This document shows positions 13,489-17,344 of a stretch of DNA of 36,893 nucleotides, piece by piece. The notes beneath the pieces are model-generated. The model saw only the letters and a program-made list of their open reading frames with translations, did no database searches and had not been told where the DNA came from. The translations under genes were made by a program, and so were the position numbers. Origin of the DNA: Actinomycetota bacterium (lineage in GTDB: Bacteria > Actinomycetota > Acidimicrobiia > Spongiisociales > UBA5794); NCBI GenBank assembly GCA_030123765.1, contig JASJXX010000019.1:1-36893 (forward strand). The letters run 5' to 3'. How positions within the stretch are numbered: position 1 is the stretch's first letter; each line of letters opens with the position of its first letter.

Positions 13489-15053
13489 GGAAGCTGATCA
13501 CCGCAGAGGCGGTGGTGACAGGCCTCGGCACCGTTGGAGACTCCGTGCTGATCGACCACGGCAGGGTGGTCGCTGTCGGCAACAGGGGGGATCTCACCTC
13601 CACAGCGATCTTCGAGGAGCGGTACCCGGGCGCGTTCATCATCCCCGGGCTCCGCGATGCGCACCTGCACGCGGTCCCTTACGCCAGCGTCCTCTGGGGC
13701 TACTCGCTCAAGGCGGCGACAGACATTGCGGACCTCCAGGACCGTCTCGCCTCGCAGGCAGGGTCACTCGGCGAAGGCCTACCGCTTGTGGCGACGCGTC
13801 TTGATGATGAAAGCCTTGCCGAAGGCCGCCTCCCGACGAGGGGTGACCTCGACGCCGCGGTATCCGACCGACCGGTCGTCGTGTACCGCTACTGCGGCCA
13901 CGTCGCAGTGGCCAACTCTGCTGCCCTGTCGGCGTCTGGCATCGACATGTCGACCCGGGATCCTGAGGGGGGAACTATCGATAGAGACAGTGCGGGCATC
14001 CCGACGGGTGTGCTGCGCGAGACAGCAATGGGTCTGGTAGCGCCGGCGCTCGAACACGATGTCGGGGTGAGTGACGACCAGCTAGTGGAAGCACTCCGCG
14101 GGCTCGCAGGGTTGGGTGTCACCTCGATCGGAGCGATGATCGGGTACGGGGAGCGGCCATTCGAGCAACTCGAAGCAGAAGTCGACCTCTGGTGTCGAGT
14201 CGCCAGACGCCTTCCCATCAAGGTGCACGCGTTCGTGATCGCGGAGACGCCCACGCAGCTCGAACGCGCAGCAGAAGCACTCACGGCCGCCGGCCCGAGG
14301 CTCCGTTGGCTTGGCGTGAAACGCTTCGCCGACGGAAGCCTGGGCGGTCACACCGCGGCGATGAACGCCCCGTTCCACGATGTAGCGACAACAGGGACGT
14401 ACCGCCTCACCGAGGCAGACGCTGTGGTCGCCCGTGCAAGCCTTGCGATCGGTGGCATGGTCGCAGTGCACGCCATCGGCGATCGGGCCGTCAACGGGGT
14501 GCTCGACATGTTCGAGGAACTCATCCGTGGCGGCGCCGACCCCGCAGACCTTCGTATGGAGCACGTCTCCGTGATCGCCCCATCGCAGATCCGAAGAATC
14601 AGCGATCTGGGTGTGACCGCCTGCGTTCAGCCGGCATTTCTCGCTTCGGAATCCACATGGCTGGCAGACCGGTTGGGTCCGGATCGGAGAGAGTGGGTGT
14701 ACCCATTCCGATCGCTCCTCCACGCAGATGTACCCGTCGCAGGATCGTCCGACTGCCCTGTTGAGCCGCCGCACCCGCTGTGGGGAATCGCCGCGGCGAT
14801 GGACCGGTACGGAGTCAATCCTCATGAGAGGCTCAGCGGCCTCGAAGCACTCGCAATGTTCACGTCCGGTGCGGCGAGGGCGCTCCGAGAGCCTGAGCCT
14901 CTCTCTTCCGGCGCACCGGCAGATCTCGTGATCGTCGATGTCGATCCGTCAACCGCAACGCCGCAACAGGTGCGCAGCGCCCGGATCCTTGACACCTACA
15001 TCGATGGTCGCTCCGTGGACGTCGACAGATCTCTCGAAGTCTGGCCCGACTAA
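13485..15053 (+). CDS. Amidohydrolase family 3 protein (YtcJ-like metal-dependent hydrolase)
   Basis: A predicted metal-dependent amidohydrolase of 522 residues. It has the N-terminal composite beta-domain, the metal motif DAHLH in IIPGLRDAHLHAV, GVKRFADGSLGGHTAAM in mid-protein, VHAIGDRAVNGVLDMFEE, MEHVSVI and GSSDCPVEPPHPLWGI, followed by GAPADLVIVDVDP, which returns to the beta-domain. This set is typical of the Amidohydro_3/YtcJ group, whose natural substrates are mostly unknown. The open frame reaches 13311, but the GTG at 13485 overlaps the upstream TGA and gives the expected N-terminus (RKLITAEAVVTG). The stop overlaps by 4 bp the stop of the convergent minus-strand gene. Confidence 0.9.
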   Translation: MRKLITAEAVVTGLGTVGDSVLIDHGRVVAVGNRGDLTSTAIFEERYPGAFIIPGLRDAHLHAVPYASVLWGYSLKAATDIADLQDRLASQAGSLGEGLPLVATRLDDESLAEGRLPTRGDLDAAVSDRPVVVYRYCGHVAVANSAALSASGIDMSTRDPEGGTIDRDSAGIPTGVLRETAMGLVAPALEHDVGVSDDQLVEALRGLAGLGVTSIGAMIGYGERPFEQLEAEVDLWCRVARRLPIKVHAFVIAETPTQLERAAEALTAAGPRLRWLGVKRFADGSLGGHTAAMNAPFHDVATTGTYRLTEADAVVARASLAIGGMVAVHAIGDRAVNGVLDMFEELIRGGADPADLRMEHVSVIAPSQIRRISDLGVTACVQPAFLASESTWLADRLGPDRREWVYPFRSLLHADVPVAGSSDCPVEPPHPLWGIAAAMDRYGVNPHERLSGLEALAMFTSGAARALREPEPLSSGAPADLVIVDVDPSTATPQQVRSARILDTYIDGRSVDVDRSLEVWPD

Positions 15054-15241
15054 GCGGTCTGGGACTCCACCCAGCAGTTCGAGCAGTACGCGCCCCACTC
15101 GCCGTAGCGCGGGTCGTGGGCGAGCTGTGTACTGCAGCGAGCGCAACGGGCAGCAACGAAGTCGTCGGCGACCCGTCCGAACGGACCGTCCATCGAGAGA
15201 AGGTCTGCAACGAGGACAGCGTTCGAGTAGCCGGTCGACAT
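15050..15241 (-). CDS. Small double-CxxC protein of unknown function
   Basis: A 63-residue protein with two CxxC knuckles (CARC near residue 33 and CSNC near 53) and the aromatic stretch WGAYCSNCW, suggesting a zinc ribbon or a redox thiol protein. I do not recognise the family with confidence. The ATG at 15241 is preceded on the minus strand by TACCTT ending 6 nt upstream, a leaderless promoter. It lies directly downstream of the SelW-like gene, also minus-strand, with 41 bp between, so a shared thiol-related role is conceivable but unproven. Its stop overlaps that of the amidohydrolase. Confidence 0.65.
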   Translation of the reverse strand: MSTGYSNAVLVADLLSMDGPFGRVADDFVAARCARCSTQLAHDPRYGEWGAYCSNCWVESQTA

Positions 15242-15282: not shown

Positions 15283-15540
15283 TCAGTTCTCCTGGTCGGG
15301 GATCGGACCGATGATCTGCTCGAGCGACTCCATGACCTCTTCGATCGAGGCATGACGTCCGAGCTCCTTCTTGGAGAAGATGAGGTCATCGCCGACAACG
15401 ACCTCGAATACGCCGCCACTCGAGGGGATGACCGTGATGTCACCGATGTAATGCTCGTACCTGCCGAGGATCGCCTGAACCATGCTCACGGCACGGTCGG
15501 TGTAGTTTCAGGCGGCGCAGTATTCGATGGATAGGTGCAT
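15283..15540 (-). CDS. SelW/Rdx-family selenoprotein with CxxU motif (in-frame TGA)
   Basis: A predicted thiol/selenol oxidoreductase of 85 residues with a thioredoxin-like fold. Reading from the ATG at 15540 gives MHLSIEYCAA, then TGA (15510-15508), then NYTDRA, and continues in frame through IPSSGGVFEVVVGDDLIF and SKKELGRHAS, hallmarks of SelT/SelW/SelH (Rdx) proteins. With Sec at residue 11 the active site is C8-A-A-U11, the position of CxxC or CxxU in this family, and the NY that follows is also typical. A SECIS-like hairpin lies just downstream and a leaderless promoter (TAGATT, 7 nt) points at this ATG. A plain caller would start at the internal GTG 15489, losing the active site. Sec machinery genes are not in this window. 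Confidence 0.85.
15479..15497 (-). other. Candidate bacterial SECIS hairpin
   Basis: Starting 11 nt after the TGA on the minus strand, ACCGTGC pairs with GCATGGT (7 bp, one G-U) around the loop CGTGA. The apical loop begins 18 nt after the TGA and contains GU, as expected for SelB-bound bacterial SECIS elements. Lower pairing (CC with GG across an internal loop) may extend the stem. Confidence 0.6.
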
Positions 15541-15547
15541 GGGGCGA

Positions 15548-15553
15548 AATCTA
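15548..15553 (-). promoter_or_regulatory. -10 box TAGATT, leaderless promoter of the SelW-like gene
   Basis: On the minus strand TAGATT ends 7 nt before the ATG at 15540. It supports that ATG, rather than the internal GTG 15489, as the true start, and so supports reading through the TGA. Confidence 0.6.
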
Positions 15554-15601: not shown

Positions 15602-17269
15602 TCAGCTCAGAACTGCTCCGGACTCTGCGGAACCGACCAGCTTCGCATACTTCCCTAACGCACCCGTGGTGTACCTCGGCGCTGGTGGCTCAAAGGCTCT
15701 CCGACGCTCCTCAAGCTCCGCTTCGTCCACGAGAAGGTCAAGTCTCCTCTCTCCGACGTCGACTCGAATTCTGTCCCCGTCCTCAACCAGCCCGATCGGT
15801 CCACCGCTCGCTGCCTCAGGGGAGACGTGTCCGATGCACAGACCGGTCGTCCCTCCTGAGAATCTCCCGTCCGTGATGAGGAGCACATCCCTGCCGAGAC
15901 CGGCGCCTTTGATCGCAGCAGTGATCGCGAGCATCTCTCGCATCCCCGGACCACCCTTCGGGCCCTCGAACCGGGTAATGACGACGTCGCCCGGCCTGAA
16001 CTCGTGGTTCCACAACGCTTCGAGCGCGTGCTGCTCGTCGTCAAATACCCTGGCGGTGCCCTCGAACACGTCCAGTTCGATGCCTGCGACCTTGACGACC
16101 GCTCCACCCGGCGCCAGCGAACCACGCAGGATGACGATGCCGCCGTCGGCAGCGAGCGGAGCGTCGATCGGTAGGACCACATCCTGATCCTCCGGCACAA
16201 CGATGTCGGCGAGATTCTCAGCCATCGTCCTGCCGGTGACGGTAATGACGTCGCCGTGGATCAAGCCACCATCCAGGAGCACCTTCAGCACGACAGGCAC
16301 ACCACCGATCAGATCGAGGTCAGCCATGTGATACTTCCCGAACGGCTTCATGTCACCGATCTGAGGCGTCCTGCGAGATATCTCGTCGAAATCTTCCAGT
16401 GTGAGAGCAACACCTGCCTCAGAGGCCATCGCCATGAGGTGGAGGACGGCGTTGGTCGACCCACCGAGCGCCATCACGATCGTGATGGCATTCTCGAACG
16501 CCTCGCGAGTCATTATGTCCCTCGGTCGAATGTCGGCCTCAAGGAGCGCTACCACGGCCTCACCTGATCTGCGAGCGTACTCCTCGAGGCGGGAATCCAC
16601 TGCGGGAACGGACGCTGACCCGGGGAGAGAGAGACCGATCGCCTCTCCGATCGAGGCCATGGTATTCGCGGTGAACATCCCCGCGCACGAACCGGCTCCC
16701 GGACACGCGCTCTGCTCAAAGCGCAGTAGCTCCTCGTCTGAGATGGTCCCTTCAGAGTGCGCGCCAACAGCTTCGAACACGTCGACGACGGAGATGTCCC
16801 TGCCGTCGAGAACTCCTGGAAACGATGAGCCCCCATAGAGGAAGACAGATGGCAGGTTGTGTCGTGCTGCAGCCATCAACATGCCGGGGAGCGACTTGTC
16901 GCATCCCGCGATCGCAACCATCCCGTCAAACCGTTCAGCGTGCATCATGAGCTCGACGGAGTCCGCGATCACCTCCCTCGATACGAGCGACGCTCGCATC
17001 CCCTCGTGACCCATCGCTATGCCGTCCGACACGGCGATCGTCGTGAACTCAAGACCGATCGCACCGGCATCGCGCACGCCAACCTTGGCGAACCCGGCCA
17101 GCATCTGGCCGGTGAGGTTGCACGGGGTGACCTCGTTCCCTGCCGAAACGACCCCGATCTGGGATCGGGCGAAGTCTTCTTCTCCGAACCCGACAGCGCG
17201 CAGCATGGCACGGGCGCCAGCCTTCGCCGGACCGATGGTCACGTCCTGAGAATGGATCTTTCTCGGCAC
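15602..17269 (-). CDS. ilvD: Dihydroxy-acid dehydratase
   Basis: It dehydrates 2,3-dihydroxy-acids to 2-oxo-acids in valine, leucine and isoleucine synthesis and uses an Fe-S cluster. The 555-residue product has the cluster cysteines in [18 protein letters not shown] and [17 protein letters not shown], and the C-terminal block [20 protein letters not shown]. The open frame extends to 17323, but the GTG at 17269 gives a normal N-terminus (PRKIHSQDV) and is preceded by a leaderless -10 box TACGAT ending 6 nt upstream. It stands alone, with no other ilv gene in the window. Confidence 0.96.
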
Positions 17270-17275
17270 GGAGCC

Positions 17276-17281
17276 ATCGTA
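17276..17281 (-). promoter_or_regulatory. -10 box TACGAT, leaderless promoter of ilvD
   Basis: On the minus strand it ends 6 nt before the GTG at 17269, which decides that start over upstream in-frame codons. Confidence 0.5.
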
Positions 17282-17344
17282 CCTGTTCCCGGCGAAGTGC
17301 CATCTCCCACCGCCAGCTCTCATCGAGTACCGGGATCGACTCTC

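Follow-up and report, generated by a model that had tools for sequence, protein, structure and literature searches.

The window analysed here, a stretch of 36,893 nucleotides from an actinobacterial genome, carries a gene that, judging from its sequence and that of its relatives, is almost certainly a bacterial SelW-like selenoprotein gene in which UGA would be read as selenocysteine (Sec) at codon 11. In each feature open to computational testing, the gene belongs to the Rdx/SelW family. Its in-frame TGA is conserved among relatives, it is followed by a covarying hairpin, and the genome of origin encodes the Sec machinery.

Reading frame and protein family

The gene and its TGA codon are located as follows:

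15283..15540, minus strand: predicted SelW-like (Rdx family) selenoprotein gene; 85 codons, Sec at codon 11, TGA stop
15508..15510, minus strand: putative Sec-coding TGA, second position of CxxU (C8-A-A-U11); TGA in 80/81 assessable homologues

Read from ATG 15540 on the minus strand, the frame gives MHLSIEYCAA-TGA-NYTDRAVSMVQAILGRYEHYIGDITVIPSSGGVFEVVVGDDLIFSKKELGRHASIEEVMESLEQIIGPIPDQEN, with the TGA as codon 11, and terminates with TGA 15285-15283, so that the read-through product has 85 residues with U at position 11. Re-reading the sequence confirmed the frame given in the preliminary description (ATG 15540, in-frame TGA, end at 15283), and its prediction that an ordinary call would be left with 68 residues and no active site was borne out: under table 11 the ORF caller returned a 68-aa remnant, 15283-15489, starting at GTG 15489, from which the active site is absent.

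The read-through product scored above the cut-offs of Pfam Rdx PF10262 (E 2.8e-19, 69.5 bits, cut-off 22.6) and TIGR02174 CXXU_selWTH (57.3 vs 34.2) and under that of the Campylobacter-type NF041051 (76.7, cut-off 88); by sequence it matched the Rdx protein 2fa8 in the PDB (E 1e-11). A structure model built from only 6 close sequences was of low quality (pLDDT 63.8), and a model built from 41 sequences was used in its stead (pLDDT 89.4, pTM 0.78). In this model the CxxU site is the loop that joins the first strand (residues 2-8) to the first helix (14-31), after which come three further strands and a closing helix. The best 21 matches of a fold search in the PDB were all Rdx/SelW-related (2fa8 with TM 0.87), with mouse SelW next, and the product is accordingly modelled with the thioredoxin-like fold common to solved Rdx proteins. 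The TGA falls exactly at the second active-site position of this Rdx-family product (C8-A-A-U11), as had been claimed.

Conservation of the TGA and co-occurrence with selA

We searched 149 related genomes and found the gene in 81 of them. Reading of the DNA placed a TGA at the CxxU position in 80 of these 81 assessable homologues, across many genera and families; in seven of the 80 the codon lies one place later, with one extra N-terminal residue. The lone Cys form among these relatives (CTQC) belongs to genome G140, in which a search for selA gave no match. The conservation upstream of the TGA on which the preliminary description had made its reading depend was found, with C8 invariant in 41 aligned sequences. 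The dN/dS ratio was 0.12 for the codons before the TGA and 0.16 after the SECIS, indicating purifying selection on both sides. Since the codon is kept in nearly all homologues between two regions under such selection, the in-frame TGA is not a chance occurrence, and because independent assemblies share the same TGA, a sequencing error is excluded.

Genomes with the gene more often had selA, which was present in 75/81 relatives with the gene vs 44/68 without it (Fisher p 2.7e-5, optimistic because related genomes were treated as independent). The six gene-bearing relatives without a selA match comprised five UGA-form drafts, 69-90% complete, and the Cys-form genome. Across the phylum, 56 of 396 sampled genomes had the gene; among those 56 that had not been tested before, selA occurred in 28/32 UGA-form vs 4/15 Cys-form genomes (p 6.8e-5, optimistic for the same reason), the Cys form thus being found mostly in genomes without selA. 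Four UGA-form genomes of this sample gave no selA match, two of them being 94-98% complete.

Some individual homologues deserve mention. Genome G094 holds two SelW selenoprotein paralogues, of the YCAVU and YCVPU types (L067 and L102); the latter lacks the leaderless -10 element described below and has an SD-like sequence upstream. Two close Cys-form homologues with CASC (L111 in G277 and L112 in G299) occur in genomes that still have selA, and are candidates for Sec-to-Cys replacement. We set aside a hit in a Pseudomonas MAG (L024), which is only partial and lacks the active site.

The bSECIS hairpin

The TGA is directly followed by a predicted bSECIS hairpin with these parts:

15480..15496, minus strand: predicted bSECIS core; stem and loop covariation over 77 distinct sequences
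15496-15491, minus strand: 5' arm, CCGTGC
15490-15486, minus strand: loop, CGTGA
15485-15480, minus strand: 3' arm, GCATGG

With the U of UGA numbered 0, positions +14 to +19 would form a stem with +25 to +30, enclosing a loop of five bases. All six stem pairs were intact in 73 of the 77 distinct sequences, vs a mean of 4.5 and a maximum of 13 over 2000 draws that replaced codons by synonymous ones taken from these genes and left the protein unchanged. The pair +17/+27 alternates between U-A (64 sequences) and C-G (13). The loop has the form N-G-U-N-N with invariant G and U, and its positions +20 and +23 (N1-N2) were complementary in 77/77 sequences (C-G 59, G-C 7, A-U 7, G-U 4), whereas permutation yielded 48.8 on average and never more than 60. 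Both are third codon positions (of Ala17 and Val18) at which changes are silent, so that N1-N2 varies by synonymous changes only. The SECIS stretch has undergone roughly half the synonymous change seen elsewhere in the gene (pS 0.29 vs 0.52-0.60), as expected where RNA structure limits silent sites.

A published bSECIS model (PMC13188914) describes a loop of 3-9 nt, an upper stem of 4-16 bp, a G in the first two loop positions, a distance of 16-37 nt from the UGA and an MFE of at most -7.5. The hairpin agrees with this model, with a loop of 5 nt, a stem of 6-8 bp, a G as the second loop base and a loop that starts 17 nt past the UGA; for the stretches whose predicted fold is the hairpin, the MFE was -11.5 to -11.9 kcal/mol. 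When the 50 nt downstream of the UGA were folded with RNAfold for the window copy alone, a competing structure was preferred, and the single-sequence z-score of the window copy was only -1.9. None of the Rfam families matched the window at the gathering score and the SECIS was therefore judged by comparison; we accept it because of the comparative evidence and not of single-sequence energy.

Sec machinery and other genes with in-frame TGA

The source genome (2.2 Mb, 98.6% complete) was found to contain selA, selB, selD and tRNA-Sec, the four components that the preliminary description had proposed to look for. The selA gene (C65:43859-45181) adjoins selB (C65:45204-46958), selD lies on another contig (L018, G000:C82:17237-18163), and the tRNA-Sec, with anticodon TCA (UCA), scored 77.1 bits for a gathering score of 47. 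The selD gene has an in-frame TGA at the classic Sec position (GSG-TGA-ACK) with a hairpin behind it, and is itself a selenoprotein gene. An in-frame TGA at the classic Sec position was also found in the gene for the formate dehydrogenase alpha subunit FdhA (CNRT-TGA-HAPS; L106, G000:C58:31886-33145). Since both the SelW-like gene and the upstream ilvD end with TGA, this codon is otherwise a normal stop in this organism.

Start of the mRNA and gene neighbourhood

The following features flank the gene:

15548..15553, minus strand: putative -10 element TAGATT, 13 nt before the ATG; TANNNT in 30/30 closest homologues
15602..17323, minus strand: ilvD (dihydroxy-acid dehydratase), conserved upstream neighbour, identified by Pfam/NCBIfam and synteny
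15050..15241, minus strand: gene for a 63-aa CxxC...CxxC protein, downstream neighbour; conserved, own -10 element

The leaderless promoter that had been claimed for the upstream ATG does exist at the level of sequence, as TAGATT at 15553-15548, 13 nt upstream of the start codon. A TANNNT motif begins 12-14 nt before the ATG in all 30 closest homologues, as compared with 1.2 expected and a maximum of 8 in 2000 shuffles; five loose SD-like matches among these 30 overlap with the -10 sequence itself (e.g., TAGGAT). Because of this spacing, the SelW-like mRNA is probably leaderless, with the UGA at nt 31-33. The more distant homologues L054, L058, L061 and L063 have a Shine-Dalgarno leader, and the leaderless form would therefore be confined to closer relatives. 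In around one third of the other likely genes of the window, a plausible start codon is preceded by TANNNT at 12-14 nt; leaderless genes thus appear to be common in this organism and the pattern is not specific to selenoproteins. We consider it likely that throughout this actinobacterial clade a selenoprotein is translated from an mRNA that has no leader, with Sec at nt 31-33 and the SECIS core at nt 45-61.

The locus order (ilvD, SelW-like gene, 63-aa gene, then a convergent amidohydrolase) recurs in many relatives. The 63-aa protein had no family match in Pfam and NCBIfam and shows the pattern NG.S.AVLV.DLL..DGPF...A.DF...RC..C...C..C; both its gene and the homologues of this gene are preceded by a -10 element at leaderless spacing. 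A shared neighbourhood alone does not tie this protein to SelW function.

Alternative readings of the locus

A nonsense mutation that turned a Cys or Trp codon into TGA in a decaying gene would look like the early in-frame stop seen here, all the more as ORF calling shows only the 68-aa remnant. Such a pseudogene would have to share its TGA with nearly all homologues over many genera and families, while keeping purifying selection on both sides of this codon and a covarying SECIS; we regard this reading as refuted by the conservation of the TGA across independent genomes, and its probability as negligible. The true product might instead be the 68-aa protein from GTG 15489, the upstream part being a mere leader, given that a GTG and an ATG are available within the frame at codons 18 and 20. 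Codons 1-10, however, are conserved at the protein level (invariant C8, the low dN/dS before the TGA), the -10 element points to the upstream ATG in 30/30 homologues, and the Rdx fold includes the first strand together with the CxxU loop. This reading is thus highly improbable, and a functional role for the internal GTG and ATG was considered and rejected.

The open frame alone would also be compatible with a reassigned UGA, or with its decoding by a near-cognate tRNA for Trp or Cys in place of Sec. We give very little credence to this possibility either: TGA serves as the normal stop of the SelW-like gene and ilvD, the genome has the full Sec machinery and the gene a specific bSECIS, and SelD and FdhA have TGA at classic Sec sites. 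The claim that the gene is a real selenoprotein is thus supported by the conserved TGA, the Sec machinery and the covarying bSECIS, from which we infer Sec insertion itself.

Discussion

In the scenario that we favour for this selenoprotein gene, RNA polymerase would probably start at or beside the A of the ATG, as suggested by the conserved -10 element. The ribosome would then meet the UGA at codon 11, where SelB with Sec-tRNA-Sec would bind the hairpin 17 nt downstream, and Sec would be inserted in place of termination, as the SECIS and the complete machinery suggest. The resulting 85-residue product would be a thioredoxin-fold protein with the redox site C8-A-A-U11 in the loop that connects strand 1 to helix 1. 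By analogy with the family, its selenol would most likely attack a disulfide, a peroxide or a mixed disulfide and then form a Se-S bond with C8, to be reset by thioredoxin or by a low-molecular-weight thiol, in actinobacteria probably mycothiol.

The corrected gene model matters since ordinary annotation would drop this gene or leave a remnant without active site. The SelW-like selenoprotein appears as a stable trait of this actinobacterial order that is also present elsewhere in the phylum, and not as a sporadic acquisition; a description of the family in this order was not found in the literature searched, which covered few subscription papers. The 77 distinct SECIS that we aligned, with their purely synonymous covariation of the loop pair, support the bSECIS loop model well on comparative grounds. 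Leaderless decoding, if real, is the only less usual point of the gene: SelB would have to be recruited within the first steps of translation, by a ribosome started without a Shine-Dalgarno leader, making the gene a natural system for Sec insertion right after leaderless initiation. In the same literature, with its few subscription papers, we found no bacterial selenoprotein mRNA described as leaderless.

Bacterial SelW-like selenoproteins (PF10262/TIGR02174) have been described from the Sargasso Sea and Global Ocean Sampling sets (PMC1088965, PMC2398784), and Sec has been proposed as the original form of SelW-like proteins (PMC1794560). The present gene, which we consider a well-supported, ordinary new member of this common family, shares with them the small thioredoxin fold, the N-terminal CxxU and a bacterial SECIS after the UGA. 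Unlike those of the marine sets, it belongs to an actinobacterial lineage (its relatives being labelled Acidimicrobiia or Actinomycetota), has an apparently leaderless mRNA and is adjoined by ilvD and the gene for the 63-aa Zn-ribbon-like protein. The Cys-form Rdx structures 2fa8 (Atu0228) and 3dex (SAV_2001) represent the same family and fold (TM 0.85-0.87) but carry CxxC where the present protein has CxxU. Mammalian selenoprotein W (2npb) has, like the present protein, a CxxU site and a related fold (TM 0.65), although its SECIS is of the eukaryotic type and located in the 3' UTR, whereas the hairpin of the present gene lies within the coding region.
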